64,000 nucleotides of DNA from contig NZ_QMIM01000024.1 in assembly GCF_003287355.1 (NCBI RefSeq), forward strand, positions 1 to 64,000, given 5' to 3'. Positions 11,773 to 53,468 of the stretch are shown in pieces. The position numbers were made by a program, and so were the translations under genes. The notes under the pieces were generated by a model. It had not been told where the DNA came from. It worked only from the letters and a program-made list of their open reading frames with translations, and ran no database searches. This stretch comes from Halorubrum sp. 48-1-W (lineage in GTDB: Archaea > Halobacteriota > Halobacteria > Halobacteriales > Haloferacaceae). The first letter of the stretch is position 1, and every line of letters starts with the position of its first letter.

Positions 11773-11775
11773 TGG

Positions 11776-11893: not shown

Positions 11894-11986
11894 TTCACCT
11901 CCGTTCACGCACACGGTGTACCCCCGGTCGCTTCGCTCACGGGGATCCCACCGTGACCGTTCATTCCGAGCTCGTGGCGGCTCGTT

Positions 11987-13009
11987 CTACGCCCCGGACG
12001 AGGACGTGAACCGCAATCGGTACTCGTAGTACTCGTCGCCGTACAGCACCGTCCCCGTGCCGTGTTCGGCGTCGCTGAAGGCGTCACTCTCGACGTTTCC
12101 GTCGAGGTAGGCGCGCTCGTGAAGCGCCGTCACCACGTCCCGATACGCGTCGGAATACGGATGCGTCTCCTCGTACTCGCCCCCGCGAGCCGACCGAAGC
12201 ACCTCCGATTCGTCCGTGGAGAGCGCGTCACGGGTGATCCGAGCGTCGACGAAGGTCGCCCGGAGGATCGCCTCCATTCGCTCGGGACTCGTCGCGACGG
12301 GTTCGACGGTCGCGCGATGGACCGGCTCGTAGAACCGCTCTTCGGCGACCTCGACGGCGTACTCCGTCTCGCGGTAGACGACGCGGTCGGGACCGTCCTC
12401 GGACAGGACCCGGCTCGTTTCGACCGCCCCCTCGGACCGGTAGACGTAGCCGCCGCGTTGAACCAACCCCCACGGGACGCCACCCTCGTTGCGGCGGGCA
12501 CGGGCGGCCATGTGTGCGATCTCGACGGCTCGTTGGTCGCTTTGGGGAAGCTCCTCGACAGCGACAGCGTCGACGTCGGTGTCGCCACCGTCGTCGATCC
12601 GCGTCCCGTCCCGAAGTCTGAGGACGGGACGAGTCTCGGCGGCTTCGTCGACCACGACCGACCCGGCCCGGTAGTAGGTTCCGTCCGCTCTGACGTACGT
12701 GGGATCGTCGGGGGTGGACCGGAACGGCGTTCGGTACTGTGTCGTGTACGTCGATCCCTCGAGCGTCGTCCGGAAGGCCTCCTCGGCGTCCGGTGAGCGG
12801 GCATCGGCGAGGTCGATCACGTACCGATCCCGGAGGTTATCGCTCCGAGGAGACAGGGTGAAACGTAGGGACCGTTCGGCGGATCCGTCGGGTTCGCCGG
12901 CCCCGCTCTCGACGGAACCGAACGGCCCGAGACAGCCCGCGACCGCGGCGACCGCGGTCGCACAACCGGCACCCAACAGTCGTCGTCTGGTCGTCGACTC
13001 CTCCGTCAT
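11987..13009 (-). CDS. Predicted Tat-exported lipoprotein, unknown function
   Basis: A 340-residue secreted protein. The N-terminus MTEESTTRRRLLGAGCA has a twin-arginine motif; the hydrophobic segment ends in the lipobox VAGC, so the mature protein is probably lipid-anchored on the outer face of the membrane. The rest is acidic and hydrophilic with YVIDLADA, YYRAGSVVV and YDEYYEYRL-like strands; I recognise no domain. I used the ATG at 13009 because it places the arginine pair correctly; an in-frame start at 13054 would bury it. It follows the tRNA region, convergent to it. Confidence 0.8.
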   Translation of the reverse strand: MTEESTTRRRLLGAGCATAVAAVAGCLGPFGSVESGAGEPDGSAERSLRFTLSPRSDNLRDRYVIDLADARSPDAEEAFRTTLEGSTYTTQYRTPFRSTPDDPTYVRADGTYYRAGSVVVDEAAETRPVLRLRDGTRIDDGGDTDVDAVAVEELPQSDQRAVEIAHMAARARRNEGGVPWGLVQRGGYVYRSEGAVETSRVLSEDGPDRVVYRETEYAVEVAEERFYEPVHRATVEPVATSPERMEAILRATFVDARITRDALSTDESEVLRSARGGEYEETHPYSDAYRDVVTALHERAYLDGNVESDAFSDAEHGTGTVLYGDEYYEYRLRFTSSSGA

Positions 13010-13167
13010 ACCTGAGCGACGTCTCGATCGGGTAAAGACGTTGGTGTGGCTCAAACGGCTCTTTGATCCTACGCGTCGCCCCGGCGGTGACGGTAGCGCT
13101 CGGACCGGGTAGGATACTCGAACCGGGGCGTCGGTGGAGTTATGTTCACACTCGCGACATCGCCGGT

Positions 13168-13872
13168 ATGGACGACACTCGGGTCGCGATCGTGACGGCG
13201 GCGGGAAGCGGCATCGGAGAGGCGTGCGCTCGGCGGCTGAACGACGACGGGTACGTGCCGGTGTTGTTGTCGCCGTCGGGTAGCGCCGTCGACGTCGCCA
13301 ACGACCTCGGCGGCGACGGCTTCGAGGGCTCGGTCACCGACCCCGACGACCTGCGGGCGCTCGTCGAGACGACCCACGAGCGGTACGGCCGGATCGACGC
13401 CGTGGTGAACAACACCGGGCACCCGCCCTCCGGCGACCTCGTCGAGATCTCCGACGAGGAGTGGTACGAGGGGATGGACCTGGTGTTGCTGAACGTCGTC
13501 CGGATGGCCCGGCTCGTCACGCCGATCATGGAAGCACAGGGTGACGGGGCGATCGTGAACGTCTCGACGTTCTCGGCGTTCGAGCCCTCGAGCGACTTCC
13601 CCGTGTCGTCGGTGTTGCGGGCTGGCCTCGGGAGCTACACCAAACTCTACGCCGACCGATACGCGTCGGACGGGATCCGCATGAACAGCGTCCTGCCCGG
13701 GTTCGTCGACAGCTACGACGTCGACGAGGAGACGAGGGCGCAGATACCGATGGGACGGCCCGCACGGACCGCGGAGATCGCCGACGCGGTCGCGTACCTC
13801 CTGTCGGAGGAGTCGAGTTATATCACCGGCCAGAACCTCCGCGTCGACGGCGGGCTCACGTCGTCGGTGTAG
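13168..13872 (+). CDS. SDR family oxidoreductase with an altered catalytic site
   Basis: A 234-residue Rossmann-fold protein. The cofactor motif is TAAGSGIGEACA near residue 10, NNTGHPPSGD corresponds to the NNAG block, and the end GQNLRVDGGL matches 3-oxoacyl-ACP-reductase-like SDRs. Where the YxxxK pair should be, the sequence reads SSDFPVSSVLRAGLGSYTKL, so the usual tyrosine and lysine appear replaced (F and S); only the upstream serine (NVSTFS) is clear. It may be a divergent subfamily using other residues. The ATG at 13168 was chosen over 13063 for the fold start. Confidence 0.82.
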   Translation: MDDTRVAIVTAAGSGIGEACARRLNDDGYVPVLLSPSGSAVDVANDLGGDGFEGSVTDPDDLRALVETTHERYGRIDAVVNNTGHPPSGDLVEISDEEWYEGMDLVLLNVVRMARLVTPIMEAQGDGAIVNVSTFSAFEPSSDFPVSSVLRAGLGSYTKLYADRYASDGIRMNSVLPGFVDSYDVDEETRAQIPMGRPARTAEIADAVAYLLSEESSYITGQNLRVDGGLTSSV

Positions 13873-14002
13873 GCGATCGCGTGCGGATCGCGGGGGATCG
13901 GTCTCGTTAACGACCCAGTCGAGCACGTGTCGTCGCTGGCGCGGTAGGCGTTTTCAAATCCCCGGCCGCTCGAGAGTGTAAGGCAGGAAACGTGACTTCG
14001 AC

Positions 14003-14245
14003 GAACACCTCCAAAGCCCCAGTTGCGACGACTCGCGCGGCTTGCTGCGGTCCTCGTCGCTCACTTCGTTCGATCCTCCGGTCCTTGCTGCGCCGTGCTT
14101 CGTCCTCGCAACTGCCCCTTTGAGTCCCGCCCGCCGCACCGCGACCGCACCTCACGCCTCCCCAGCCTCGTTGCTCGCGCTCTCGCGCTCGCAACTCCCT
14201 CGCGGGCGGTTCGCGGGTGCTGACGCACCCGCTCACCGGCGCGCC
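14003..14245. repeat. Structured dispersed repeat, copy R2
   Basis: The same module order as R1: head GAACACCTCCAAAGCCCCAG, first stem AGTTGCGA...TCGCAACT, the block CCCCTTTGAGTCCC, CCTCACGCCTCCCCAGCCTCG, second stem GTTGC...GCAAC, CTCCCTCGCGGGC, a GCGGGTGC/GCACCCGC hairpin and terminal GGCGCGCC. It fills most of the convergent spacer 13873-14291, which has no gene. Confidence 0.85.
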
Positions 14246-14291
14246 ACCGCACCGTATCGTAGCGGAAACGATCCGTGCCGGCAGGAAAGCC

Positions 14292-15296
14292 TCAGTCAGC
14301 GACGTTCGGCGTCCCGAGGTACTCCTCGTTGATCTCGTACTCGCCCTCGTCGTTTTCTATCAGGTACTCGCCGTAGTAGGGGACCCGGTTCTCGACGACC
14401 GCCTCGAACGTCTCGGCGATCTCCTCGCGGCTCATCTCCCCCATCGACCGGAGGTCGTCGTTGCGGTTGAGACAGCCCTTCAGGTACCCCTCGTGGGTGA
14501 CGCGGACGCGGCCGCAGTTGGCACAGAACTCCTCGTTCTCGACGGGGTCGACGATCTCGACCATCCCGCCACCCTCGCCGTCCGCGTCCTCGCCGACGAA
14601 GTACCGCTTGCGGTCGTGCATCTCCCGTCGTTCGATCCGGTCGGCCTCCTCGGCGAGCCAGTCGTGGACACGCCCGATGTCGATGTTCCACTCCGGTTTC
14701 CCGGTCAGCTCCGGCATGTACTCGATGAGCTGGAGCTGGAGCCCCTCGTTTTCGGCGACGTGTTCGACCATCTCCTCGACGTAGCCCGCGGTGTGGGTGA
14801 ACACCACCATGTTGAGCTTCACGGGGTCGAGCCCGGCGTCGACGGCGGCCCTGACGCCCTCGAGCACCTGCTCGTACGCGCCCGACTTCGTCACCGCGGC
14901 GAAGTCGTCGGGGTCGAGCGCGTCCTGTGAGACGTTCACGCGGTCGAGCCCCGCCGTCTTCAGGTCCTCGGCGCGTCCCGGGAGGAACGTCCCGTTCGTC
15001 GTCATCGAGACCTCCATGGAGTCGGGAGTCCGCTCGATTATCTCCTCGAGGTCCTGTCGAAGCATGGGTTCGCCGCCGGTGAACTTCACCGAGTCGACGC
15101 CGTAGCCCTCGACGACTTCCAGGAAGCGGACCACGTCGTCGGCGCTCATCTCGTCCGGGCTGGGCTCCATCGGGCCGCGCGTGTCGCCGAGACCCTCGTT
15201 GTGACAGTAGATACAGTCGAAGTTACACCGGTCGGTGAGCGAGACCCGAACGCCCGTAACCTCCCGTCCGAAATCGTCCGCGAGCGGCTCGGCCAT
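14292..15296 (-). CDS. moaA: GTP 3',8-cyclase MoaA (molybdenum cofactor biosynthesis)
   Basis: A 334-residue radical-SAM enzyme that makes 3',8-cyclo-GTP, the first step to molybdopterin. The SAM cluster motif is [26 protein letters not shown] and [10 protein letters not shown] follow. The C-terminal second cluster cysteines are in [18 protein letters not shown]. The start at 15296 ([13 protein letters not shown]) lies about 26 bases after an ATGTTTAAAC box. The cofactor can serve both molybdo-enzymes and the tungsten-type aldehyde oxidoreductase at 32974. Confidence 0.95.
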
Positions 15297-41183: not shown

Positions 41184-41375
41184 TCAGACCCGGAGAAACA
41201 GTCCGTAGCCGACGATCGACAGGAGCGCGGCGAACAACGCGATGAGCACGCGCCGTTTCGTGACTCGCGGTCGCGTTCTGGGCCGCGATCGCTCGGGTGA
41301 AGCGCGTTGGTTCCGGTTGCGCAATCCGTTTCGCTCCCCGTCGGGCACGCACTGTCCATTACCGCGATCACTCAT
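41184..41375 (-). CDS. 63-residue single-span membrane protein, end of the secreted-protein operon
   Basis: The protein begins MSDRGNGQCVPDGERNGLRN, is basic in the middle (PRTRPRVTKRR), and ends in one transmembrane helix (VLIALFAALLSIVGYGLFL). Its ATG overlaps the stop of the acidic-protein gene by eight bases (ATGAGTGA), so it is coupled to it. No family recognised. As the last gene of the signal-peptidase operon it may assist secretion or anchor the acidic protein. The reading frame continues upstream, but the overlapping start is the most natural. Confidence 0.65.
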   Translation of the reverse strand: MSDRGNGQCVPDGERNGLRNRNQRASPERSRPRTRPRVTKRRVLIALFAALLSIVGYGLFLRV

Positions 41376-42297
41376 CGTCGTCCTCTCCAGCGTCGTCCTC
41401 TCCAGCGTCGTCGTCGTCCTCAGCAGTATCGTCACCTCCAGTATCGCTGTCCTCTTTAGTATCGCCGTCCTCTCCATCATCGTTCTCCCCATCATCGTTC
41501 TCCCCAGCATCGTCCTCTCCGCTATCTCCGGCGTTTTCGTCCTCACCGTCGCCCGTGTCGTCGTCGCTTCCGGCGTCCTCACCTTCGGGAGCGGATCGCG
41601 TCTCGTCCTCGTCACTCGCTCCGTCCTCGTCACTCGCTCCGTCCTCGTCACTCGCTCCGTCCTCATCGTCGGACTCGCCCTCAGCGTCTCCCGCCGAGGA
41701 TGACCCCGCTCCGGTCGCGTTGGCTTCGTCGCCGCCCTCGTCACCTTCACCGGCGTCTCCGTCCGTTCCGGTGGTCCCCTCGTCGTCCTCGACGTCACCG
41801 TTTTCGTCGTCGATCTCGCTACCGTTCTCGGGTTCAGTCGGTTGGTCGGTGGTCGAATTCGAGCCGGGGTCCGTCCCGTTCGCCGGTTCGTCGTCCTCGG
41901 CGTCGGTCTGGGAACCGTTTTCCCCTTCGGTCTCCGTCGTCTCTCCCTCCCCGCCGTCGAGGGCGGTTTGGGTGATCCCGGTACCTTGGCCCACACCGGT
42001 CCCGTTGTCTTTGCCGACGGCCTTTCCGTCACCCCGATCGGTACCGTTGTCTTTGTCCTTGTTGACCGCGTCTTCGTCGTTGTTTCCGTCCGTCTCGTTC
42101 CCGTCCGTTTCGTTCCTCGAGTCTTTCGCTGCGAGGCCACCCTCCTCGGAGTCGAGCTCCGCGAATTCCTCGACGGTCGAGAAGTTCCCCTGGACGGTGG
42201 TCTCGTCGGAGAACACCGCGAGCGTCCCGAATCCGCCGCCGAATCCGGAGACCAACACGAGGACCGCGACGATCAGCACCGACGCAGGATGGTTCAT
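41368..42297 (-). CDS. Very acidic low-complexity secreted protein with SipW-type signal
   Basis: A 309-residue protein. The N-terminus MNHPASVLIVAVLVLVSGFG is a signal segment ending in LAVFSDETTVQGNF, the SipW-type cleavage neighbourhood. From residue 60 on it is almost only D, E, G, N, S and T, with several NGT/NGS/NST sequons (possible N-glycosylation) and a GASDED unit repeated three times, encoded by an 18-bp repeat at 41606-41659. No fold recognised; it resembles a polyanionic matrix or ion-binding polymer. The start overlaps the signal-peptidase stop (ATGA). Confidence 0.8.
   Translation of the reverse strand: MNHPASVLIVAVLVLVSGFGGGFGTLAVFSDETTVQGNFSTVEEFAELDSEEGGLAAKDSRNETDGNETDGNNDEDAVNKDKDNGTDRGDGKAVGKDNGTGVGQGTGITQTALDGGEGETTETEGENGSQTDAEDDEPANGTDPGSNSTTDQPTEPENGSEIDDENGDVEDDEGTTGTDGDAGEGDEGGDEANATGAGSSSAGDAEGESDDEDGASDEDGASDEDGASDEDETRSAPEGEDAGSDDDTGDGEDENAGDSGEDDAGENDDGENDDGEDGDTKEDSDTGGDDTAEDDDDAGEDDAGEDDDE
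41606..41659. repeat. 18-bp in-frame tandem repeat in the acidic protein gene
   Basis: TCCTCGTCACTCGCTCCG occurs three times in a row (41606, 41624, 41642), encoding GASDED. Confidence 0.9.
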
Positions 42298-43370
42298 CGT
42301 CCCTCCTCGTCGGCGATATCGAGACCCTCGTCGACCGCCCCGGCCCGGCCGTCCGCGGCGGGCGCGATCACGGGGCGCTCGAAGATCCCCGTCGGGCTCC
42401 CGTCGTCGATACCTCCCGGTTCGTCGACGCGATCGTCCTCACGGACGCTTGCGTCCCCGGGACCGTCGCCGACACCGTTGTTTCCGCCGACGGAGACGTC
42501 CGCACCGCCGTCGTCACCGTGTCCCGTATCCCCGCCGTCGTCCGGGTCGGACACGGCGTCGGCTGACCCATCCCCGTCGCCGGCCGTGACGAGGAGCACG
42601 ACCGCCATCAACAGCGTCATGCCGGTTCCGACCGCGACCGCGACGGCGAGGGCGGTCCGGAGCGTGTACCCGACGTACGCCACGTACGGGACGAAAAACA
42701 GGAGGACGGCGACTGCGCCCTCGACCGTTCGATTCGTCACGACGAACCCTGAACCGGTTGCGGTCTCGTCCGCGCTCGCGTCCGCCGCTTCGGTCTCGAC
42801 GTTCGTTTCCGCCGTCGCGTCCACATCGGGTGCGTCCACCGCGTCCGAGCCGCCGCTATCCCGAGTCCGGGAGCGGTAGAGGCTCCAGACCTCGGAGAGC
42901 GCGAGCAGGCCGAACGGCACGACGACGAGCAGGGCGAACCCGATCGGCGTGTCCGTGAACTGGATCACGTACCCGATGTACGGGATCGTGACGGTCACCG
43001 CGCCGAGGACGTTCTCGGCGGGCACGAGCGCAGTGTCCGGCCCTTCGTTGGCGTCGCCCTTCGTCTCGAAGGCGAACTCCCCGTCGGCCGTCTCCACGCC
43101 GGTCACGCGATGGGTCACGGGGGTCTCGCTGTCGCCACGGACGTACGTGATCACGTCGCCCTCGGCGATCGTCGCCGGGTCCCGTTCGTCGACGACGACC
43201 ACGTCGCCGGGGGCGATCGCGGGCGTCATGCTCGCCGTCAGGACGACGAAGCTGTACTCCGCGCCGACGACCGCCGGCACCGCGTACACCACGAAGGGCG
43301 CGACGACCGCGATCAGCAGGGCGATCCCGAGCAGGTTGGCGATTCTCTTGAGCGTGATAGGTGAGTTCAT
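42294..43370 (-). CDS. Signal peptidase I, archaeal/SipW type, with a C-terminal extension
   Basis: A 358-residue membrane protease. After an N-terminal helix (IANLLGIALLIAVVAPFVVY) come the Ser-His dyad motifs VVLTASMTPAIAPGDVVVV (serine) and TPVTHRVTGVETADG (histidine), then ETKGDANEGPDTALVPAENV, all as in SipW/ER-type signal peptidases. A helix near residue 140 follows. The extra part has two more helices (VAVLLFFVPYVAYVGY and MTLLMAVVLLVTAG) and a 90-residue acidic/glycine tail. Its place among SipW-type substrates, with ATGA overlaps on both sides, marks it as their dedicated peptidase. Confidence 0.92.
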   Translation of the reverse strand: MNSPITLKRIANLLGIALLIAVVAPFVVYAVPAVVGAEYSFVVLTASMTPAIAPGDVVVVDERDPATIAEGDVITYVRGDSETPVTHRVTGVETADGEFAFETKGDANEGPDTALVPAENVLGAVTVTIPYIGYVIQFTDTPIGFALLVVVPFGLLALSEVWSLYRSRTRDSGGSDAVDAPDVDATAETNVETEAADASADETATGSGFVVTNRTVEGAVAVLLFFVPYVAYVGYTLRTALAVAVAVGTGMTLLMAVVLLVTAGDGDGSADAVSDPDDGGDTGHGDDGGADVSVGGNNGVGDGPGDASVREDDRVDEPGGIDDGSPTGIFERPVIAPAADGRAGAVDEGLDIADEEGR

Positions 43371-44872
43371 TGTAGGTCCTCCGGGGCACAGATCGAGTTG
43401 CCGTCCGTGAACGTGCCGCCGACGAGTTCGTAGAGCGTTCCGCCCGACCCATCGGAGCCGAACGTGTCCCCGATGGCGAGCACCTCCGAGCAACTGGTGT
43501 GGACGTCGACGGTCTCGGAGGCCTCGTCGTCGCCGCCGTCGACGATCTCGATCGTCGTGTCCTGTCCGAGACTCGTTCCGACGTTCCCCCACGTCTGTGG
43601 GACGTCGCTACCGTCGGCGGTGAGCGTTCCGCCGGGCGCGATCGTCGTATCCTCGAACACGACCTCGGCGTCACCACCGCCCGTTCGTTGCGTGGTAACC
43701 CGGATCGTGACGTCGGACTCGCCGTCGTACCTGAACGTCAGGTCGCGGTACCTGACGTTTCCGCCGCACTCGCAGTCGCCCGAATCGTCGTGGCCGTCCT
43801 CGTCCTCGTCTCCATTGTCGTCGACGCAGACGTCGATCTGGACGTTGCTTATTCCGGCGAGCCCGCCCTGGCCTGGTCCCTCGGGCGAGTACAGTAGCTC
43901 CCCCGTGTCGTTGCTCGGAGGTTCTATCGGATACGCTTCGGTATCGTCGCCCCCCTTGATCCGGACGGCACACAGCTTTCCGGCCGGGTCGCCGTTCTCG
44001 TCCACGAGTTCGAACTGTACGCCAACGGCCTCGTCCCCGTCGCCGTTGTACTCGACGTCGGTGACGGAGAGGTACGCGTCGCCGGCGAGCGGTCCCTCGT
44101 CGATCGAGAGCCACGTCGACACGTTTCCGGATCCGCTGCCGACGACGTTCCCGTCGATGTCGTCCGCCTTCCCTCCCTCGACGCAGTCCACACACTCCGC
44201 TTCGGGTTCGTCACACGGGCCGAGCCCCGCAAAGGGGTTCGATCCCGCGGCGGCGTCCTCGGAGACGTGCCGGCACTGTTCGGTGTAGAGATGGAACTCG
44301 AACTCGGTCGTCTCGCCGGCCGCGTCGGCTGGGGCGTCATCGGGTAGCTCCCAGACGAGTTGGATCTCGAGGGTGTCACCCTCGGGATCGAGACACGGGT
44401 CACCGTCTCGGTCGTCGATCCGAAGCCCGTCGACGAACTCACGACGGAGCTCCGAGAGCGACCCCGAAGAGACCAAGCCGTCGTCGACCCGGAGGTCAGC
44501 TTCGAGCGCGTCGCCGAGCGGGTCGGCGGTCGGCGGGCAGGTCGTCGCGAACCAGAGCCGCGCGGGGTTGCTCCGGACTGCGACGTCGAACGTCACGTCC
44601 CCGGAGTCGCCGCGGTCGATCGGCTCGTCGGGCGTGAAGCTCACGGTCCCGTTCGAGACGGTACAGTCGCCGTCGTCGCACGACACGTCGAGTTCGACCT
44701 CGCCGGCACCCATGGCGTTGTTCGGGAGCGTCTCCTCGTCCGAGAGGTACGCGAACGTGCCCGCGCCGCTGGCGGCCCCGATCGCGCCGAGTCCGCCGAG
44801 GCCGGCCAGGAGCCGGCGGCGGCTGAGGCCGGCCGGTCCGGAACTCCCGCGTCCGCTTCCGTCGGCGGTCAT
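43367..44872 (-). CDS. Secreted Tat/SipW-type signal protein, TasA-like
   Basis: A 501-residue exported protein. The signal LSRRRLLAGLGGLGAIGAAS carries a twin arginine and ends GTFAYLSDEETLPNN, like SipW-dependent signals. The first domain (to about 215) is a TasA-like beta sandwich ending FEFHLYTEQCRHVSEDA. A second, cysteine-containing region follows (EAECVDCVEGGKADDIDG) with calcium-like acidic segments, then beta-rich repeats to the end. It is coupled to the signal-peptidase gene (ATGA) and to the gene upstream, so it is co-expressed with its likely processing enzyme. Confidence 0.85.
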   Translation of the reverse strand: MTADGSGRGSSGPAGLSRRRLLAGLGGLGAIGAASGAGTFAYLSDEETLPNNAMGAGEVELDVSCDDGDCTVSNGTVSFTPDEPIDRGDSGDVTFDVAVRSNPARLWFATTCPPTADPLGDALEADLRVDDGLVSSGSLSELRREFVDGLRIDDRDGDPCLDPEGDTLEIQLVWELPDDAPADAAGETTEFEFHLYTEQCRHVSEDAAAGSNPFAGLGPCDEPEAECVDCVEGGKADDIDGNVVGSGSGNVSTWLSIDEGPLAGDAYLSVTDVEYNGDGDEAVGVQFELVDENGDPAGKLCAVRIKGGDDTEAYPIEPPSNDTGELLYSPEGPGQGGLAGISNVQIDVCVDDNGDEDEDGHDDSGDCECGGNVRYRDLTFRYDGESDVTIRVTTQRTGGGDAEVVFEDTTIAPGGTLTADGSDVPQTWGNVGTSLGQDTTIEIVDGGDDEASETVDVHTSCSEVLAIGDTFGSDGSGGTLYELVGGTFTDGNSICAPEDLQ

Positions 44873-45639
44873 GCGGACCCCTCCTCGTGCTCCGGGACCG
44901 ACTCCGCGAACGGGTTTCCGTCCCAGCCGCAGTCGACCGCGTAGAACGACACGTCGAAGTCGACGGACCCTCCCTTCCCGCCGTTGCCGCCCTCGCCGAC
45001 CGGGAACGCCCAGTTGAACGCGAGACAGCGGCTCTCCTCGGGTTCCAGACAGCCGTTGTCGAGGATCCCGGGATCGACTTCGATCCCTCCCGTCAAGTCG
45101 TCGCCGTCGAGCTCCGCAAGCGTGCCGGAAAAGATCCCGGTGCCGAACTCGGGGAAGTCATCGACGTTCTCCGCGCCGGCACAGCCGCCGACGCCGAGGA
45201 ACCCGGTGTCGTAGCGGGCGGAAACCTCGATCCGCTCCGCGAGCATCCGGCTCGCCGGGTCGGCCCCGATATCAGGGTCGATCTTCATCCACACGCGGAC
45301 GCCGTCCGGAACGTTTTCGCCGAGGTCGTCGATCCGGAGGCTCACGCTCGTCGAACCCGAATCGCCCGGGAGGACGTTCTCCTGGTCTACGAGCCGTATC
45401 GAGCCGCCGACGTCGGCGACCTCGTCGGTCGGGCTCTCGTCGACGAGTTCGTCGTTGTATCTGGTTCGCCAGCCGACCAAGAGGCGGGTCGGAACGTCCG
45501 ACTGCGCGTAGGTGTAGCTCGTGTACTCGTCCGGGGTGCTCGTCCGGCGACCACCCGCCATTCCGAGAGAGGCGAAGCCGACGGCTCCGACGCCCGCGAG
45601 TGCCTGCCGCCGAGTCAAGTGTATGTCTCGTTTCGTCAT
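44869..45639 (-). CDS. Secreted Tat-signal protein of the SipW cluster
   Basis: A 256-residue exported protein with LTRRQALAGVGAVGFASLGM as a twin-arginine signal but without the YFSD block of its neighbours. The mature part is beta-rich, with GDSGSTSVSLRIDDLGENVP and a C-terminal FDVSFYAVDCGWDGNPFAES, a divergent form of the cluster's EQCRHND motif. It is the first gene of the coupled run 45639-41184. A CATACATAGG sequence near 45703 may be its promoter. Confidence 0.8.
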   Translation of the reverse strand: MTKRDIHLTRRQALAGVGAVGFASLGMAGGRRTSTPDEYTSYTYAQSDVPTRLLVGWRTRYNDELVDESPTDEVADVGGSIRLVDQENVLPGDSGSTSVSLRIDDLGENVPDGVRVWMKIDPDIGADPASRMLAERIEVSARYDTGFLGVGGCAGAENVDDFPEFGTGIFSGTLAELDGDDLTGGIEVDPGILDNGCLEPEESRCLAFNWAFPVGEGGNGGKGGSVDFDVSFYAVDCGWDGNPFAESVPEHEEGSA

Positions 45640-45949
45640 TCGTGTCCTTGTCGTCGGCTCCGGACGGCCGGTTCGTCGATAGTCTCCACGCCTCTCCGGT
45701 ACCTATGTATGACCCCCCTACCCGAACGGTTCGGATCCCGAACCGCGTTGATTGACCGATTCAACCGACGGCAGGGGGTGCCTATCGGGCGGTTTTTCGC
45801 CCGGATCCCGTCGTCGGTCGCGTCCGTCGCGATCCGCTACGGGAGTCCCACCGGCGGAGTCGAACCGCCGTCTCGACCGTCCCATCGAGGGAGTTCGAGG
45901 GTGAGGGGGACGGATCCGACCGATCCGGATCCGGTGTCTATGCTTGCGT
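45640..45949. other. Spacer upstream of the signal-peptidase operon
   Basis: 310 bases between vWA protein 1 and the Tat-signal gene. It contains an orphan T-arm-like hairpin (45853-45869), a GGGCGAAAAACCGCCC hairpin near 45790-45805, and a TATA-like CATACATAGG (minus strand, about 45703). The out-of-frame tail of vWA protein 1 runs to 45837. No other gene is supported. Confidence 0.6.
45853..45869 (-). repeat. T-arm-like hairpin, orphan copy
   Basis: On the minus strand GGCGG-TTCGACT-CCGCC, a five-bp stem with a perfect T-loop consensus, followed by GGTGGGA as in the other copies. Here I find no good partner for GGTGGGA upstream, and no start codon lies close downstream. Confidence 0.7.
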
Positions 45950-47507
45950 TCAGCTCTCCGCGTACGGGTTCGTCTCGCCGTCGTTGTGGCGGCACTGTTC
46001 GGCGGCGAATCCGATCGCGAACTCCACGGAGTCGGTCTGGACCTCGTTGCCGACGCCGGTGGGAAGCTCCCACTCGAAGCCGAAGCAGCGAGTTACCGAA
46101 TTCGTGAAGCAGACGCGCTCTTCCGCCTCGAGGTTCGCATCGAGCTCGATTCCGTCCGAGAGCTGGGCCATCACCTCGCTCAGCGTACCTTCCGCGATGA
46201 CCGCCTCGCCTGAGAGGATGACCGAGGAGATCTGTGAGTAGATCGTCTAGTTCCGTCCCGGTCGGCGAATCGTAGTAGAGGACGGTCCCGTTGCTCGAAC
46301 TCGCCATCGATATGAGCGTGTTCTGAGCGGTACTCCCGGAGTTAACTCCCAATCCGATCGTGAACACGGTGATATCGTTGGGAGAGTCCTTTGCATCGTC
46401 CGCCGCGTCGATCGCGTTCTGGACGTGATCGCTTCCTTGTCGGGCAGATCTGGTCGGCTGTCCGTCACCGAGTAGAACGATTACCTGATCGACCCCACGG
46501 TCGTTGCTGGTGAGTTCGTTGGTTGCTCGATCGACGCCATCGTCCATCATGGTCTGTCCGGTAGAGGTGATCCCGAGGTTGCCGGGCTGAAGATAGCCCT
46601 CCACTAACGAGTGATCGGATGTGAGCCCCTGTCGGAGCTGTCCGTTGCTCGCGAACGTTACGAGTCCGACACGATCGTTCGATCCGAGATTGTTGACGAA
46701 CTGTAGCGCGGCCGCCTTCGCCTGCTCCATCTTGCTTCCGGGGCCGTTGCTCATCGACCCGGAGGTGTCGATCGAGAGCATCACGTCGACGCCCTCTCCC
46801 TCCTCGCTGTCGGTCTCAGCCTGATGGATGTTGTCGCAGTTGTCGTCGTACCACACCTTCGCCTGGATCGAGTCAGCGAGCTGGCCGTCTCCGTCGGGGT
46901 CGTCCGTGGCATCTCCCATCTCCTCGAGCGTTTCCTGCTCGGGTTCTGTGTAGCCGTTCTGGTCGTTGCCCGTGAGTGCCCCGCCGATCCACATGTAGCC
47001 GGGGTTGTCGTACAGGTGTGTACTGAACGTGACCTCGCCGTAATCGCCGGGTTTGACGTCTCCGATGCGAATGAGCGCGTTCTCGAGATCGCCCGCATCG
47101 ATCAGCTCGTCGCGCTGGAATCCCTCTCCCTCGCCGGCTTCGGAGTCGTAAATGCCGTTCGCGCCGATGACCCAGTCTTCGGCTCCGGGGTAGTTCTCGC
47201 GGCTCGGGACCTGATCGAGGAGGTAGACGCCGGTGTCGTCGTCGGTCGGTTCCATGTCCTCGTCGACGAACGTGGCGTTCGGGTAGTTCTGTTGGAGCTC
47301 CGCGAGACGACCGGAACCTCCCCGGTACGTCATCCGGTAGTCCATCTTGAGGTCGAGTTCGCCCGCGGTGAGCGTGTTGTCTTCGAACGACTCGTCGTCG
47401 CTGAAGTAGGCGGTCGTGCCGAGTCCCGCCCCCGCGGAGGCCACGCCCACGGCCCCGAGGCCGGCGAGCATCTTCCGCCGCGAGAGTCCTAGTTTGTCGT
47501 CGGTCAT
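45950..47507 (-). pseudogene. vWA-domain secreted protein 1, frameshifted near the C-terminus
   Basis: The frame from ATG 47507 encodes a signal (LSRRKMLAGLGAVGVASAGA, then TTAYFSDDESFEDN), a TasA-like strand region split by a vWA domain with MIDAS motif MLSIDTSGSMSNG, STGQTMMDDGVD and VIVLLGDGQPT. After TGTELDDL (about 46240) this frame turns arginine-rich. The next frame continues YSQISSVILSGEAVIAEG to FAAEQCRHNDGETNPYAES and stops at 45950, matching its paralogues. GATCTACTC in place of GATCTCTACTC, a two-base loss, would explain it. Either a decayed gene, a phase-variable one or a sequencing error. Confidence 0.75.
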
Positions 47508-47530
47508 GATTGGTCCCCCGAAGGGGAACT

Positions 47531-47585
47531 TCCCACCGGCGGGTTCGAACCGCCGTCTCGACCGCCTACGGGGCTTCGAGTGGGA
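47531..47585 (-). promoter_or_regulatory. tRNA-like acceptor/T-arm element before vWA protein 1
   Basis: On the minus strand TCCCACT (47585-47579), a 24-base middle, GGCGG-GTTCGAA-type arm read as GGCGG-TTCGAAC-CCGCC, then GGTGGGA, which pairs with the first segment (six Watson-Crick pairs and one G-U). The ATG is 24 bases further on, preceded by a second small hairpin CCCC-TT-CGGGG. Confidence 0.65.
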
Positions 47586-47626
47586 GGCGGGCAACACGGT
47601 CGTGCTGTCCGCGGTCGGTTGCGTCG

Positions 47627-49426
47627 CTATACGGGTTCTGCGGTCTCGCCGTCGAACGGGTTCGTCTCGCCGTCGTTGTGGCGGCACTGTTCGGCGTGGA
47701 AGTCGATATCGAACTCCACGAGATCCGTCTGAACCTCGTTTCCGACGTCGGCCGGGAGCCACCACTCGAAGCCGACACACCGCGTCAGACCAGGGGGATA
47801 ACACGCCGTACCGTCGACGAATCGATTGGCGTCCAGCGCATATCCTTCCGCGAGCGTCTCAAGCACCTCTCTGAGGGTGCCGTCGGCGATTACCGCCTCT
47901 CCGAAGAGGATTTGTGCGATCTGTGCGAAGATCTGTACCAGTTCGATCTCCTCGGGTGCCTCGAAGAACAGCGTCGGCTGTGTTCCACTGATATCCTCCG
48001 AAGCGATGTCGACGAGCGTCTGCCGTGCGGGAGCCGTGTTCGGGACGCCCTCCAGCCCGAAGCCGATCGCGTAGATAACGACGTCGGTCTCGTCTTTGAT
48101 CTCGTCGGCGACGTCCTCCACGTCGTCCTGTGCGTTCGAGACGCTGACGTCGTCCGCCGCAGCCTCCTTGTCGTAGTCGCTCCACGACTGCCAGGTGGAG
48201 TACGACGGGAAGTCGGAACCGTCCCGGTAGGTCCACGTGGGTGCACCGTCGCCGATGACGAGCATGACCTTCCGACGGCCGGAGTTGCTCGCTTCGAGCA
48301 CCTGCCGACCGCCGTAGAGCCCCGCACCGATGTTCGTCCCGGCTCGGGGAGCGTCGCCGTACTGGTAGGCCTCGATCTGGTCGATGGCACCGTCGATGGT
48401 TGACGTGTTGCTCGCATCCGTGAGCACGAGGAGTTCCTCGTCTATCCCGCCGAACTGGACGATTCCGAGCCTGTCGTCGTCGCCGGATCCGTTCACGTTC
48501 GTTCGAAGGTTGTCAGTGAGGGATTCGATCGCGGATACCGCTTGGTATATCCGCGAGTTCGGACCCTGTCCGTCGCCCACGACGTTGTCCGGGCCCGGAT
48601 CGCCGATCTCGTAGGTCATCGAACCCGAGACGTCGACGACGACCGCGATGTCGACGGGGCCGGATTCTTCGCCCTCCTCGTAGACGTTGTTACAGTTGTC
48701 GTCGTACCAGACGCGAGCGCGGATCGCGTCCGCGAGCTGGCCGCCCCAGTCGCCCTCGACGTTGTAGTAGCGTTCGTCGTCCGCGGCCGCATCCGCGAAG
48801 AACTCGGAGTCGTCGCTTTCGGTTTCCGTGTACCCCGCGTCCTCGAGAGCGGTCCGTTCGGGATCGTTGATCCCGTTCTGCGCGTCACGGGTCAGACTCC
48901 CGCCCATCCACATGTACGCGGGATTGTCGAACAGGTGGAAGCTGATCGTCGCCTCGCCGTAATCTCCAGGCTTCACGTCCTCGAGTTTGAACAGCGGGAA
49001 GCCGGCGTCGGTGAGTTCCTCGCGTTCGAAGCCGCCGAGCTCTCCGTTGGACTCCACCCCGACGTTCGCGGCCTCGATCCACCCGTCCGGCTCCGGGTAG
49101 TCGCTACGCTCCGGCACTTGGTCGAGCACGTAGGTCCCGGACCCCTCGGGGTATTCGGTCACGCTGACGTTCTCGTTGTAGTTCGGGTCGTCGTCGTAGA
49201 CCGCCCGAAGCTCCTCGAGGCGTCCCGGCCCGCCCTCGTACGTGATCCGGTAGTCCATCTTGAGGTCGAGTTCGCCCGCTTCGAGGGAGTTCCCGGTGAA
49301 CCCCTCCTCGTCGCTGAAGTACGCCGTCGTTCCGAGGCCCGCACCCGCGGAGGCGACACCGATCGCTCCGAGGCCGCCGAGTAGCGTCCGGCGTGAGAGG
49401 CCGTTTTCCGTTCTTTTTCGTGTCAT
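47627..49426 (-). CDS. vWA-domain secreted protein 2 with Tat/SipW-type signal
   Basis: A 599-residue exported protein. Signal LSRRTLLGGLGAIGVASAGA then TTAYFSDEEGFTGNS. The TasA-like beta domain (DVKPGDYGEATISFHLFDNP) is followed by a vWA insert of about 280 residues: VVVDVSGSMTYEIGD (MIDAS), RAGTNIGAGLYGGRQ and VMLVIGDGAPTW. The beta domain resumes with FGEAVIADGTLREVLETL and ends FDIDFHAEQCRHNDGETNPF. The MIDAS predicts metal-dependent ligand binding, as in pilus adhesins. It lies between two tRNA-like spacers. Confidence 0.88.
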   Translation of the reverse strand: MTRKRTENGLSRRTLLGGLGAIGVASAGAGLGTTAYFSDEEGFTGNSLEAGELDLKMDYRITYEGGPGRLEELRAVYDDDPNYNENVSVTEYPEGSGTYVLDQVPERSDYPEPDGWIEAANVGVESNGELGGFEREELTDAGFPLFKLEDVKPGDYGEATISFHLFDNPAYMWMGGSLTRDAQNGINDPERTALEDAGYTETESDDSEFFADAAADDERYYNVEGDWGGQLADAIRARVWYDDNCNNVYEEGEESGPVDIAVVVDVSGSMTYEIGDPGPDNVVGDGQGPNSRIYQAVSAIESLTDNLRTNVNGSGDDDRLGIVQFGGIDEELLVLTDASNTSTIDGAIDQIEAYQYGDAPRAGTNIGAGLYGGRQVLEASNSGRRKVMLVIGDGAPTWTYRDGSDFPSYSTWQSWSDYDKEAAADDVSVSNAQDDVEDVADEIKDETDVVIYAIGFGLEGVPNTAPARQTLVDIASEDISGTQPTLFFEAPEEIELVQIFAQIAQILFGEAVIADGTLREVLETLAEGYALDANRFVDGTACYPPGLTRCVGFEWWLPADVGNEVQTDLVEFDIDFHAEQCRHNDGETNPFDGETAEPV

Positions 49427-49462
49427 GAGTGTGCTACCGCGCTTCGTGTGAGCGCGGAGAAA

Positions 49463-49501
49463 TCCCGCCGGCGGAGTCGAACCGCCGTGCTCCGAACGGG
49501 A
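49463..49501 (-). promoter_or_regulatory. tRNA-like acceptor/T-arm element before vWA protein 2
   Basis: Minus strand TCCCGTT (49501-49495), an eight-base linker, GGCGG-TTCGACT-CCGCC, then GGCGGGA. The acceptor-like helix has changed from T-A to C-G at one position relative to its relatives and has two G-U pairs, while the T-arm is intact. A CGCG...CGCG hairpin and the ATG follow within 37 bases. Confidence 0.6.
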
Positions 49502-49502
49502 T

Positions 49503-49520
49503 CCACGCGGATTCGCGTGG
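49503..49520 (-). terminator. Hairpin after vWA protein 3 gene
   Basis: CCACGCG-GATT-CGCGTGG, a perfect 7-bp stem 25 bases after the stop of the upstream gene, without a T-run. It may terminate or stabilise the mRNA end. Confidence 0.4.
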
Positions 49521-49544
49521 GGGGAGTTCACAGATCAGGACGGA

Positions 49545-51062
49545 TCAGGCTGCGAACGGGTTGCCAGGCTCGTCGTTGTGGCGGCACTGTTCGGCGTGGA
49601 AGTCGAACTCGAACTCGACGGAGTCCGTCTGGATCACGTTGCCGACTTCGGTGTCGATGGACCACTCGAACGCGACGCAGTGGGTTCCCGGACGGAAACA
49701 GGCCGCATTGGCGTCTGTGGAGCCGATCAGGGGTGCCGGATCGAGTCGCATCCCTCCGCTCATCTCGTCGCCGAACTCCTCCAAGGTGCCCTCGAAGATG
49801 ACCTCCTCACCGACGATGATCGCCTGGAGGATGTCGTCGTAGATGAGCGGCAGAACCGTGGAGAGGTCGTCCGCCGAGGAGTTGTAGTAGTCGGTTCCGT
49901 CTCCATCGCCGGACGAAGTCGGCGTGTTGCCGGCCATGTCCCTGAGTAGCTGGGGCTCGCCATCTCCGGGCTCGTTGATGTCGATCGTCACGATGCGGGT
50001 GCCCGCGCTCTTCGCGGCGTTCGCCTCGTCCAGTTCGTCGACGTTGCTCTCGAACTGCTCGCCGTCGGTCAGGACGATCATGACCTTCTGCGCGTCCGAT
50101 CGACCGTTCGAAGCGAGGAACGACTGGGCCTCCTGGACCGCGAGCCCCAGCGCGGTGCCGGTGACGTCATCGGGAGCGGCCTGAATGTCGTCGATCGCGT
50201 CCTTCACGTCGCTCTCGACGCCGGACGGGGCGAATTGGACGCCGTCGGCGTAGTCGCTCCCGATGTAGTCCTCGTTTCCGAAGGTCAACACGCCGAGGTG
50301 CGTGTCGGCGGTCTCGTCGAAGACGACCTCACAGAAGCTCTCTGCGGCCTCTCTGGCTTCCGCGAGCTTCGTGGTCTGACCACCCCCTCCGTCGGAGATG
50401 ATGCCGCCGTACTGATCGTACTCCATCGAGCCGGAGATGTCCTGTACGATGAGGATGTCCGTTTTGCCGGCCTCCTCGTCGTAGGTGTTCGAGCAGTCGG
50501 AGTCGTACCACATGCGGACGTCGATGTTCTCGGCGAGTTCACCCTCGCCCTCACCGCCGGTCTCGTCCACGAGCGATTCGGGCTCGTTCAGCCCGTTGTC
50601 GTCGTCGTTGTAGACGCTCCCACGCATCCAGACGTACGCGGGGTTGTCACAGATGTGGAAGGACATCGTGACCTCGCCGTAGTCGCCGGGCTTCACGTCG
50701 TCGAGCTCGAAGATCGGGATCTCGTCGCCGTTGATCAGGCCTTCGGTATCACACGAGAAGCCGAGATCGGCCCGTTGCTCCCAGGTCAGCGGTCCCTCGG
50801 ACGTGTCCTCCCCGTACTGCTCGATGAGTTGTTCGGCCGTGGGACGCTGACCGATGACTTCCGGTCCGTTCGGACCGTCGTAAGTCGCCTTGTAATCCAG
50901 CATGAGGTCCAGCTGGCCGGCCGTCAGGGTGTTCTCGGTGAACCCCTCCTCGTCGCTGAAGTACGCCGTCGTTCCGAGACCCGCGCCGGCGGAGGCCACG
51001 CCGATGGCTCCGAGTCCCGCGAGCATCTTGCGCCGCGAGAGTCCCATTTTCTTGTCTTCCAT
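49545..51062 (-). CDS. vWA-domain secreted protein 3 with Tat/SipW-type signal
   Basis: A 505-residue paralogue of proteins 1 and 2. Signal LSRRKMLAGLGAIGVASAGA then TTAYFSDEEGFTEN; beta domain with DVKPGDYGEVTMSFHICDNP; vWA insert with IVQDISGSMEYDQYGG (MIDAS), DDVTGTALGLAVQEAQ and VMIVLTDGEQFESN. Beta strands resume at GEEVIFEGTLEEFGDEMSGG and the protein ends FEFDFHAEQCRHNDEPGNPF. Its vWA is shorter than in protein 2 and the sequences have diverged, so these are old duplicates. Confidence 0.88.
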   Translation of the reverse strand: MEDKKMGLSRRKMLAGLGAIGVASAGAGLGTTAYFSDEEGFTENTLTAGQLDLMLDYKATYDGPNGPEVIGQRPTAEQLIEQYGEDTSEGPLTWEQRADLGFSCDTEGLINGDEIPIFELDDVKPGDYGEVTMSFHICDNPAYVWMRGSVYNDDDNGLNEPESLVDETGGEGEGELAENIDVRMWYDSDCSNTYDEEAGKTDILIVQDISGSMEYDQYGGIISDGGGGQTTKLAEAREAAESFCEVVFDETADTHLGVLTFGNEDYIGSDYADGVQFAPSGVESDVKDAIDDIQAAPDDVTGTALGLAVQEAQSFLASNGRSDAQKVMIVLTDGEQFESNVDELDEANAAKSAGTRIVTIDINEPGDGEPQLLRDMAGNTPTSSGDGDGTDYYNSSADDLSTVLPLIYDDILQAIIVGEEVIFEGTLEEFGDEMSGGMRLDPAPLIGSTDANAACFRPGTHCVAFEWSIDTEVGNVIQTDSVEFEFDFHAEQCRHNDEPGNPFAA

Positions 51063-51086
51063 GATGTGTCATCCCCATTGGGGAAA

Positions 51087-51143
51087 TCCCACCGACGGAG
51101 TCGAACCGTCGTCCCGGCCGTCCGTTTTCAGAGTCCGGTGGGA
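51087..51143 (-). promoter_or_regulatory. tRNA-like acceptor/T-arm element before vWA protein 3
   Basis: Minus strand TCCCACC (51143-51137), a 26-base middle, GACGG-TTCGACT-CCGTC, then GGTGGGA, which pairs perfectly over seven bases with the first segment. The T-stem has an A-T pair where the relatives have G-C, a compensatory change. A CCCC-AAT-GGGG hairpin and the ATG follow within 25 bases. Confidence 0.7.
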
Positions 51144-51173
51144 CGAGCGAAACGCTCGCTCGTAGTCGTGTGT

Positions 51174-52541
51174 TTATACGTCGATCCGGAAGCCGAGGCC
51201 TTCGCGGTTCGGCGGTGAGCCGGCGGGCCACGACATGGTAACCGTACCGCTAATGACGTCACCCTCGCCGAACGAAACGCCGTTCAGCGTGATGTTCTGT
51301 TGGCCACCCACGTTGCCGTCGACGGAGACGGAGTCGGGGCCGGACGGGGACGTCCTGTTGAGCATGACGTCGTTTACCTCGATGCTCGAATCGGAAGCGG
51401 ATGCCTTCGCCATGACAACGACAGCGTTCGCGGTCGGCAACGGCGCAGGTGCGACGGAGATCTGCGTCCCGTCAATGCTCCACTTGGCGTTGTCGTTCTC
51501 GATGATGAGTTCGAACGGGACGGCTTCGTTGTTGGGCCACGAGACGTTGGTGTCGGGCGTGAGGACCGTGTCGTCAGGCAGTCGGATGTCCATTTCGCGG
51601 TTGGCCGCACCGCCGCCGTCACCGTAGATACCACGAGCGTGCCACACCGTGCCCTCGAGTTCGGGGAAGCCCTCGCCCGCGACGCTCTCGACACACGGGT
51701 TGTTCGTCCCGTCGTTGTGGCGAGCCTGTTCCGCGTAGAACTCGAAGTCGAACGTGACGGAATCGGTCTGGATCTCGTTGCCGACCTCCTCGCCCGGAAC
51801 CTCCCAGGTGAAGCAGACGCACTGATCGGCGATCTGCGGTACGTCGTCGTCGAACGCGGCGTCGACGCCATCGAAGTGCGGGCGGTTCGCGATCGGTGCG
51901 TCGGGGTCGCCGTCACCGGACAGGGGGACGCCGTTGGAAAGCGCGTCCATGACCTCGGCCAGCGAACCGGAGACGATATCATCGCTGACTTCGCCGCTGG
52001 CGTCGCAGTACGACACCGTCACCTGCATCGCGTCGGCGAGCTCGCCGTCGCCGTCGATGTCGTCGGTCGTCTGTTCGTTGTTCTCGTCTCCGGAGTCCGC
52101 TTCCGGCTCCGTGACGGTGTTCTCGTCGTTGGAGGTCAGTTCTCCACACATCCATAGGTACGCGGGGTTGTCGACGATCGAGAAACAGAACTCGCCCTCG
52201 CCGGAGTCGCCGGGTTTCAGGTCCTCGACTTCGATCTGGAGTTCCTCACCCTCTGTCAGCTCGATCCCGTCTTCCTCGACGGTCTGGCCGATAACGCCGC
52301 CTTGGATGTACGTCCCGTCCGGGGTCTGGTAGCTACCGTAGCTGCCCTGGTCCTCGGAGTAGTTCACGTGGACGAAGAGGTCGAGCGAGCCCGCGGTGAG
52401 CGTGTTGTCAGTGAAGCTCTCCTCGTCGCTGAAGTACGCCGTCGTTCCGAGTCCCGCACCCGCGGAGGCGACGCCGATCATGCCGAGGCCGCCGAGCATC
52501 TGCCGCCGCGAGAGTCCGAAGTTGTCGTTGTTGTCGTCCAT
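51174..52541 (-). CDS. Secreted Tat/SipW-type signal protein with C-terminal beta domain
   Basis: A 455-residue exported protein, first gene of the block. Signal LSRRQMLGGLGMIGVASAGA then TTAYFSDEESFTDN; TasA-like domain with DLKPGDSGEGEFCFSIVDNP and QTDSVTFDFEFYAEQARHND, where the cluster cysteine is alanine. There is no vWA; instead residues 290-455 form a beta-rich domain (GTVWHARGIYGDGGGAANRE, VPFELIIENDNAKWSIDG) that may be a carbohydrate-binding-like or filament-contact module. The spacer upstream carries the phased boxes and a large palindrome. Confidence 0.85.
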   Translation of the reverse strand: MDDNNDNFGLSRRQMLGGLGMIGVASAGAGLGTTAYFSDEESFTDNTLTAGSLDLFVHVNYSEDQGSYGSYQTPDGTYIQGGVIGQTVEEDGIELTEGEELQIEVEDLKPGDSGEGEFCFSIVDNPAYLWMCGELTSNDENTVTEPEADSGDENNEQTTDDIDGDGELADAMQVTVSYCDASGEVSDDIVSGSLAEVMDALSNGVPLSGDGDPDAPIANRPHFDGVDAAFDDDVPQIADQCVCFTWEVPGEEVGNEIQTDSVTFDFEFYAEQARHNDGTNNPCVESVAGEGFPELEGTVWHARGIYGDGGGAANREMDIRLPDDTVLTPDTNVSWPNNEAVPFELIIENDNAKWSIDGTQISVAPAPLPTANAVVVMAKASASDSSIEVNDVMLNRTSPSGPDSVSVDGNVGGQQNITLNGVSFGEGDVISGTVTMSWPAGSPPNREGLGFRIDV

Positions 52542-52651
52542 TGAGTATCCCTGGCGTCTCGGCCAGTACCCCTCCCTTGGTGGAAGGGGGGATAGTTACG
52601 ACTCGACACGTCGGATCCGAACGCCGCCATCGGCCGACCGAACCCGCCAAT

Positions 52652-52688
52652 CGGCCGATATAACCGCTCGTTCGAGCGATATCGGCCG
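52652..52688. promoter_or_regulatory. Nested palindrome in the divergent control region
   Basis: CGGCCGATAT (52652-52661) and ATATCGGCCG (52679-52688) flank an inner CGCTCG/CGAGCG palindrome (52665-52678). It is a likely operator for the secreted-protein operon (start 52541) or the regulator gene. Confidence 0.6.
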
Positions 52689-52730
52689 TTTTTCGGCCTA
52701 TCGAAGGATCGTCCGGAAGGGACGGATGGA

Positions 52731-52830
52731 GGCCCCTACCGGTTACCTCGGGTCGCCTACCGGATCCGTCCGCACCGCCTACTGCTCCCGCTGACGGCAC
52801 CTACCGTATCGCGTGGGATCGCCTACCGTG
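52731..52830. promoter_or_regulatory. Array of five CCTACC-type boxes with 21-22 bp spacing
   Basis: CCTAC[CT] cores start at 52735, 52756, 52778, 52800 and 52822, within the wider consensus CGCCTACCG. Steps of 21, 22, 22 and 22 bp put all boxes on about the same face of the helix, as expected for cooperative binding of a regulator. It lies between the secreted-protein operon and the winged-helix gene. The whole spacer 52542-52928 has no gene. Confidence 0.7.
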
Positions 52831-52928
52831 GGCCTGGACGGATCGACCGAGTTCGATTGGTAGCATGCGACACACCCGTACGCGGCGCATACATATCCCC
52901 CCAGCCATCCTTCACGTTCTCGAACGAG

Positions 52929-53468
52929 GTGTTTCCTATTCCCCTACAGATTCGACCCGATTCGTTGCCGGAGACCGTCATCCACGACGTGCTCTCGAAC
53001 AGCCGCCGGAAGAGCGCCCTCCGCGAGCTTCGGACGCGCGGCGGGGCCGTCTCGGTTCGGGAGCTCTCGGAGGCGATCGCGGCCGACGAGACCGGGCAGT
53101 CCCCCGCCCCGCGTGGCGTGCGCGAGAGCGTGTACGCCTCCCTCCACCAGACGCACCTGCCGCGGCTCCACGACCTCGGCGTCGTCGAGTACGACCGCAC
53201 GCGCAAGGAGGTGCGCGCGTGTCGGGGCGCACGCGACGTGGAACGCTACATGACCGTCGTGGCCGGCTACGGGTTCACCTGGACGGAACTGTACCAAATG
53301 CTCGGCGTCGTAACGCTCTGTCTCGTGCTCGCCGCCCAGCTCGACGCGCCGGTCGTCGGCGCGGTCGACCCGCTCCTGTGGACGAGCGTCGCTCTCGCGG
53401 CGTTCGCGGTCGTGACGGTCGCACAACTCTGGACCGCCTACCGGCTCTCGATATCGCTCTCGCGGTGA
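52929..53468 (+). CDS. DUF7344-type winged-helix protein with membrane anchor
   Basis: A protein of about 179 residues. The N-terminal winged helix (VIHDVLSNSRRKSALREL, then VSVRELSEAIAADE, VYASLHQTHLPRLHDLGVVE and YDRTRKEVRAC) is typical of haloarchaeal DUF7344 regulators. Two C-terminal helices follow (MLGVVTLCLVLAAQL and LLWTSVALAAFAVVTVAQLW), so it may sense at the membrane and bind DNA. The start is uncertain: GTG 52929 fits a CATACATATCC box 30-40 bases upstream, while TTG 52857 opens the frame. Its position makes it the best candidate regulator of the secreted-protein cluster. Confidence 0.78.
   Translation: MFPIPLQIRPDSLPETVIHDVLSNSRRKSALRELRTRGGAVSVRELSEAIAADETGQSPAPRGVRESVYASLHQTHLPRLHDLGVVEYDRTRKEVRACRGARDVERYMTVVAGYGFTWTELYQMLGVVTLCLVLAAQLDAPVVGAVDPLLWTSVALAAFAVVTVAQLWTAYRLSISLSR

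Follow-up and report, generated by a model that had tools for sequence, protein, structure and literature searches.

Fibres of the TasA type are known from Bacillus and from thermophilic archaea, and tRNA punctuation is known in mitochondria. The closest described relatives of the locus reported here are the tapA-sipW-tasA operon of B. subtilis and the sipW-calY genes of B. cereus. In the former, TasA reportedly accepts the N-terminus of TapA (PMC10151520); the archaeal bundling pili (ABP) have been described as a TasA-like system (PMC9674648). The present locus lies in a window of 64,000 nucleotides (the whole stretch of DNA analyzed) from the 3.58-Mb, Halorubrum-type genome of the haloarchaeon Halorubrum sp. 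48-1-W. It consists of nine genes, g1 to g9, all on the minus strand and running from 52541 down to 41184, together with four copies of a tRNA-like RNA element between the genes. We believe that it probably encodes a donor-strand biofilm or adhesion fibre of the TasA/camelysin kind, with vWA-bearing subunits and with RNA elements that divide its messages. An earlier, sequence-only reading of this DNA had proposed nine co-directional genes and, at their heart, a fibre or adhesion apparatus of TasA-like proteins processed by SipW. The gene run is borne out by the DNA and its translations, and the fibre core, still a prediction, is upheld by the sequence and predicted-fold similarity of g1 and by tight linkage. 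The RNA element, on the other hand, had no place in that account.

The cluster resembles the Bacillus operon in the sandwich of the TasA type (Z 9.1 against 8aur), in SipW-type signals that have an aromatic start, FSDE, in a dedicated peptidase of the endoplasmic reticulum (ER) type within the operon, and in an accessory gene overlapping the one for the peptidase. Unlike that operon, it has signals of the twin-arginine translocation (Tat) type, several paralogous subunits, vWA domains inserted in subunits, g5, the DUF7467-containing g6, a polyanionic g8 and tRNA-like elements between the genes. The pili of Pyrobaculum calidifontis (AbpA) and the Sulfolobus threads are likewise archaeal donor-strand filaments; they come from thermophiles, can be compared with g1 by fold only, and match it more weakly than TasA does. 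We found no description of a SipW/TasA/vWA system in haloarchaea, nor of the RNA element in the context of fibre operons, in a search that covered the open-licence literature, so that an earlier description is possible. The protein system extends the TasA/SipW kind of fibre, placing a multi-subunit, Tat-type, peptidase-linked version of it in haloarchaea; the greater surprise is the RNA element, apparently undescribed in such a setting.

TasA-like subunits and a SipW-like peptidase

In alignments, g1-g3 and their relatives share the core motifs AGxLDL, DVKPGD, DNPAYxWM, GxLADAI and GTLxEV, as well as the longer VGNEVQxDSVxFDxxFxAEQCRHND. A profile of the members without vWA matches B. subtilis TasA in the Protein Data Bank (PDB; 5of1, 8aur) at an E of about 4e-4, from around the LKPGD motif to the end and over most of the length of TasA. 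This search was restricted to such members because an alignment containing vWA gave only vWA proteins in its best 60 rows; in the structural search made with the g2 model, too, vWA domains filled the results. The camelysin family PF12389 is matched over its cut-off by g1 and g2 and under it by g3, g4 and g6, and at E 0.01 it is matched by 13 of the 17 members of the non-vWA alignment; g1 is also over the cut-off of NF041928. What is more, with the g1 core, residues 1-291, modelled by AlphaFold2 (pTM 0.73), the best Foldseek match is the TasA fibre 8aur (E 2.9e-5, probability 1.00), and in structural alignment TasA entries take the top three rows (Z 9.1, 8.0 and 7.7), with Sulfolobus threads (Z 6.6) and Pyrobaculum bundling pili (Z 6.1) among those below. 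Two further proteins, g5 and g6, had been described simply as exported; this holds, and a TasA-like nature was overlooked in both. Namely, g5 and the N-terminal half of g6 give profile matches to the TasA-like core (E 8e-32, profile-profile, and E 1e-33, respectively), each score coming partly from the shared Tat region. In its own alignment, g5 begins with a conserved YTxYTYAQ.

The signals and the peptidase go together. The SipW-type signal model TIGR04088 is over its cut-off in g1-g4 and in g6 (21.9 bits against 19), which makes five genes with Tat and SipW-type signals where the sequence-only reading had counted the first four. In the whole genome there are 5 matches to this model and 5/5 lie inside the cluster, a clustering beyond chance. 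The match of g8 is sub-threshold (14.4 bits here, 18.4-18.6 in three relatives), and the signal of g5 is Tat only. As for the peptidase, g7 scores 122.7 bits, over the cut-off, with TIGR02228, the archaeal/ER-type signal peptidase model. It has the S26 Ser/His dyad, with Ser47, His87 (in THRV), Asp106 and Asp112 invariant in an alignment of 11 sequences. A profile of g7-like peptidases finds one place in the genome at E 1e-10, that of g7 itself; further S26-type peptidases are encoded elsewhere. Judged by these matches, g7 is a SipW-like peptidase distinct from the Bacillus equivalog, and the assignment of a SipW-type signal peptidase to the cluster stands on the model match, the catalytic residues and the linkage to the signals.

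This linkage extends well beyond the present genome. Among 148 genomes of the family, peptidase and SipW-type signals are both present in 84, both absent from 61 and discordant in 3. In other words, the signals occur in 84 of the 86 genomes that carry the peptidase and in 1 of the 62 that do not (Fisher 5e-38, a value that overstates independence, as the genomes are related). Haloferax volcanii, too, has signals of the SipW type. Among the SipW-type signals listed, 124 of 145 lie within 15 kb of a peptidase, and the order TasA-like genes (some with vWA), g5, g6, SipW, g8 recurs in most of the 40 neighbourhoods read. The comparison of gene order thus speaks for strong linkage and not for scattered genes.

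A tRNA-like RNA element between the genes

Repeat analysis revealed a short intergenic repeat family in the g1-g2, g2-g3, g3-g4 and g4-g5 gaps. Its members can be folded into an outer helix of 6 bp, typically (A/T)CCCAC...GTGGG(T/A), a 5' internal bulge of about 3-30 nt, and an inner stem of 6 bp, such as CGRCGG...CCGYCG, which closes a T-type loop, TTCRANY. Together the helices measure 12 bp, as long as the acceptor/T-arm stack of a tRNA. When hairpins with a 6-bp stem and a 7-nt loop of any sequence were counted upstream of 107 Tat/SipW genes, the loop was TTCGACT in 31 cases and TTCGATT in 6, with every other loop seen at most 4 times. In 35 aligned sequences, 97.4% of cells are paired, a figure biased upward by the selection of elements for pairing; for this reason the stronger evidence comes from compensatory changes, with 8 of the 12 pairs changed on both sides, and from slid structures, which pair to at most 53%. 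The level of pairing and covariation was reached by none of 500 shuffles. A CCA is encoded after the helix in 0/78 elements, compatible with tRNase Z. Rfam gave no match at E up to 5 for positions 45000-53000 and ARAGORN found no tRNA in the cluster, which rules out a recognized tRNA gene or a catalogued RNA there.

A covariance model of the element, R1, has exactly four matches in the present genome, all of them in the cluster. In the class Halobacteria it matches 107 of 242 genomes, spread over 44 of 74 genera; in the phylum sample, no genome outside the order matched. All 122 matches whose strand was read (67 sources) lie on the coding strand. What is more, the element precedes 73 of 106 internal genes, that is, genes following another such gene, but among first or isolated genes it precedes 12 of 76 (p 5e-13, with related genomes counted as separate). 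From the end of the model to the start codon the commonest distance is 16-18 nt, and a second hairpin, mostly CCCC-GGGG, directly follows the element in 64 of 74 cases (shuffled mean 25.6, maximum 36), its 3' arm at ribosome-site distance from the start codon. The spacing before g5 is long, unlike the short spacing before g2-g4, and is similar in relatives.

Among the R1 matches listed for the family, 118 of 150 are near a peptidase or a SipW-type signal. Outside such clusters, the element precedes genes for DUF1102-type Tat proteins, as seen at loci L093, L098, L105, L109 and L200. The protein at L093 matches PDB 9p0a, 'Pilin', at E 8e-12, and at L200 the DUF1102-type domain is fused to a right-handed beta-helix. 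These proteins, pilins by homology to 9p0a, have Tat-type starts and the same RNA element upstream; they are a different family, without the SipW-type motif, and are encoded outside the g1-g9 cluster. The element therefore seems to mark genes for exported fibre subunits more generally, and, present in over half of the sampled haloarchaeal genera, it could be used to find further fibre systems.

What might such an element do? The nearest described likeness is the t-element before the 5S rRNA of H. volcanii, likewise a tRNA-like RNA in a haloarchaeal transcript, which is cut by tRNase Z, while t-elements generally are cut by both RNase P and tRNase Z (PMC4326828). The comparison is one of geometry, and, unlike the 5S t-element, the elements of the cluster lie between fibre protein genes, near start codons and with a following hairpin. 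Since H. volcanii t-elements are substrates of both enzymes, we tentatively propose that Halobacteria may use tRNA mimics as mRNA punctuation. Namely, RNase P and/or tRNase Z would cut polycistronic fibre messages at elements about 24 nt before internal start codons, so setting the ratios of TasA-like, vWA-bearing and DUF1102-type subunits. Processing of polycistronic mRNAs by RNase P has a bacterial precedent (references in PMC11143913). If the proposal is true, punctuation by tRNA mimics would be the counterpart, in the mRNA of a cellular operon, of mitochondrial tRNA punctuation.

It is also quite conceivable, if short of probable, that the intercistronic elements are not cleavage sites at all and are instead leader structures controlling translation or mRNA decay. 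The second hairpin, with its arm placed where ribosomes would bind, fits this well, as does the fixed distance between element and start codon. That said, a leader role alone explains neither the acceptor/T-arm geometry of 12 bp nor a T-loop of the tRNA type. Control of translation through the second hairpin is nearly as likely as cleavage, and both may hold. Either way, the elements would let one transcript yield each subunit at its own level, and the RNA element is in this sense a concrete candidate answer to the question of unequal subunit output from a single operon.

vWA domains, assembly and competing readings

In alignment, the vWA domain of g2-g4 stands after the ADAI-x-VWYD strand and before the GTLxEV segment of the core, and the strands flanking it are conserved in the paralogues without vWA. 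Read in this way, the vWA has been inserted into the TasA-like sandwich itself, which suggests a route for building adhesive vWA heads into a polymer. The PF00092 matches of g2 and g3 have E values of 1.9e-14 and 6.8e-14. The metal-ion-dependent adhesion site (MIDAS), with its residues DxSGS, T and D, can be read in g2 (Asp at D208), in g3 (D265) and in the vWA part of g4, the last in its N-terminal frame. These residues and the DNA confirm the count of two intact vWA genes and a frameshifted third given by the sequence-only reading. In g4 there are 2 nt fewer near 46,245 than in its orthologues, which are intact in five relatives; nothing points to programmed shifting, and the frameshift stems either from a recent lesion or from an error in sequencing.

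Putting these observations together, we envisage that g1-g4 and g6 are exported folded via Tat and that g7 removes their signals. By analogy with TasA biology (PMC9674648, PMC10151520), cleavage would expose an N-terminal strand, FSDEExFxxNTLTAG, with which the next subunit completes its beta-sandwich. In two alignments of TasA-like proteins, this N-terminal segment ranks among the best-conserved parts. In g2-g4, a MIDAS vWA in a loop of the sandwich would provide heads for metal-dependent binding, either along the length of the fibre or at particular positions, which may follow the order of subunits. The g5 protein is a candidate base or cap, with an accessory role also possible, and g8, whose N-terminus is donor-strand-like and whose tail is polyanionic, is a candidate for a starter of the TapA kind or for a surface coat. 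The intercistronic elements most likely serve as RNase P/tRNase Z cleavage points or as leader structures.

Several points weigh against this reading. Fibre, processing and adhesion all rest wholly on sequence and prediction. The AlphaFold2 models are moderate (predicted local distance difference test, pLDDT, 76.6 and, for the g1 core, 78.2), and the N-terminal strand is below 50, which places strand exchange outside their scope. With the Bacillus SipW equivalog model NF046067, g7 scores 105.5 bits, under the cut-off of 190, and 21 of the 145 SipW-type signals listed are far from any detected peptidase. Finally, g4 is broken in the present genome, and about a third of the internal genes are without a detected element.

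The vWA proteins might also sit only at the tip of a fibre built from the non-vWA paralogue, as the alternative adhesin tips that the sequence-only reading had in mind. In particular, type V pili are known to have tip subunits that bear vWA, and the best match of the g2 vWA model, tied with others, is the vWF domain of the Mfa5 pilus tip (Z 22.3 over 183 residues, root-mean-square deviation 2.0). Moreover, the number and type of vWA genes vary among relatives. Both systems thus have a vWA with MIDAS in a pilus-associated surface protein; unlike that of Mfa5, however, the haloarchaeal domain lies within a TasA-like subunit. It interrupts an otherwise complete subunit that keeps its donor-type N-terminus, so that the vWA proteins could polymerize internally and would decorate subunits with no need of a tip location, and within a locus vWA paralogues often outnumber the others. 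For these reasons we find alternative tips the poorer fit and consider a tip-only arrangement unlikely.

Somewhat less likely still is that there is no fibre, and that the TasA-like proteins stay separate at the surface, as SipW-processed proteins or as adhesins associated with the S-layer, without ever polymerizing. Bacillus camelysins were, after all, first described as surface metalloproteases, a name that the matching Pfam model bears, and polymerization at the present locus is a prediction. However, the best-matching structures include strand-complemented filament subunits (the TasA fibre, the Sulfolobus thread and the Pyrobaculum pili), and conservation of the N-terminus fits an assembly strand, although recognition of the signal peptide would conserve it too. 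As for the RNA, it is very improbable that the elements are DNA recombination sites or passive copies duplicated with paralogous genes, without function as RNA: they do accompany a paralogous family, four in one array, but 8 of 12 pairs show compensatory changes, the spacing is fixed, first genes rarely have an element, and elements also precede DUF1102-type pilins, a different protein family, and occur in 44 of 74 genera.

Gene layout and flanking regions

Coordinates are collected in Table 1. The sequence-only reading had joined the last five genes by ATGA-type overlaps, and this is correct for three junctions, g5/g6, g6/g7 and g7/g8, each with a 4-nt overlap; g8 and g9 overlap by 8 nt, ATGAGTGA.

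Table 1. Genes and RNA elements of the cluster, with positions in the window
Feature	Description	Coordinates	Strand	Evidence
g1	Tat and SipW-type signal, TasA/camelysin-like core without vWA, C-terminal choice-of-anchor W domain	51174..52541	-	
RNA element	tRNA-like, before g2	51081..51145	-	R1 56 bits
g2	Tat and SipW-type signal, TasA-like core with inserted vWA, MIDAS intact	49545..51062	-	
RNA element	tRNA-like, before g3	49457..49503	-	R1 56.8 bits
g3	Tat and SipW-type signal, TasA-like core with inserted vWA, MIDAS intact	47627..49426	-	
RNA element	tRNA-like, before g4	47525..47587	-	R1 46 bits
g4	Like g3, frameshifted near 46,245	45950 (about)..47508	-	PF00092 E 4.6e-17
RNA element	tRNA-like, in g4-g5 gap, ~200 nt before g5	45840..45894	-	R1 50.3 bits
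g5	Tat-exported TasA-like protein without SipW motif, candidate base or cap	44869..45639	-	
g6	Tat and SipW-type signal, TasA-like N-terminal half, C-terminal DUF7467	43367..44872	-	
g7	SipW-like ER-type signal peptidase	42294..43370	-	TIGR02228, invariant catalytic residues, linkage
g8	Polyanionic secreted or anchored protein, SipW-like N-terminus	41368..42297	-	
g9	63-residue Arg-rich protein, C-terminal membrane segment	41184..41375	-	DNA and translation
DUF7344 gene	Divergent, candidate regulator	52857..53468	+	PF24035 E 1.6e-26

The polyanionic component foreseen for the cluster is indeed there. Namely, the mature part of g8 (309 residues in all) has a net charge of about -101, and to this are added the SipW-like and donor-strand-like features of its N-terminus. 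A g8-like gene is found at the equivalent position in most relatives, and g9 has positional counterparts in nine. Some relatives, at loci L063, L065 and L069, encode one more Tat protein, its start TasA-like (TAGTLDL or similar), between the peptidase and the g8-like gene.

On the other side, the cluster ends earlier than 53468, the limit set before, since that range takes in the divergent DUF7344 gene on the plus strand. Of the relatives read, six also have DUF7344 genes near the cluster. The intergenic region between g1 and this gene (52600-52830) holds several GTAGG repeats and a palindromic CGGCCGATAT...ATATCGGCCG stretch, possibly a regulator-binding region. Directly upstream of g1 (52542-52600) there is a CCCTTC-N7-GGAGGG hairpin about 48 nt before the gene and no tRNA-like element; in four Halorubrum-type relatives, too, the first gene has a hairpin like it upstream. 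Finally, locus L061 of a relative (382-4438 and 5080-14832) has two back-to-back peptidase clusters in opposite orientation, with DUF7344 genes near each.

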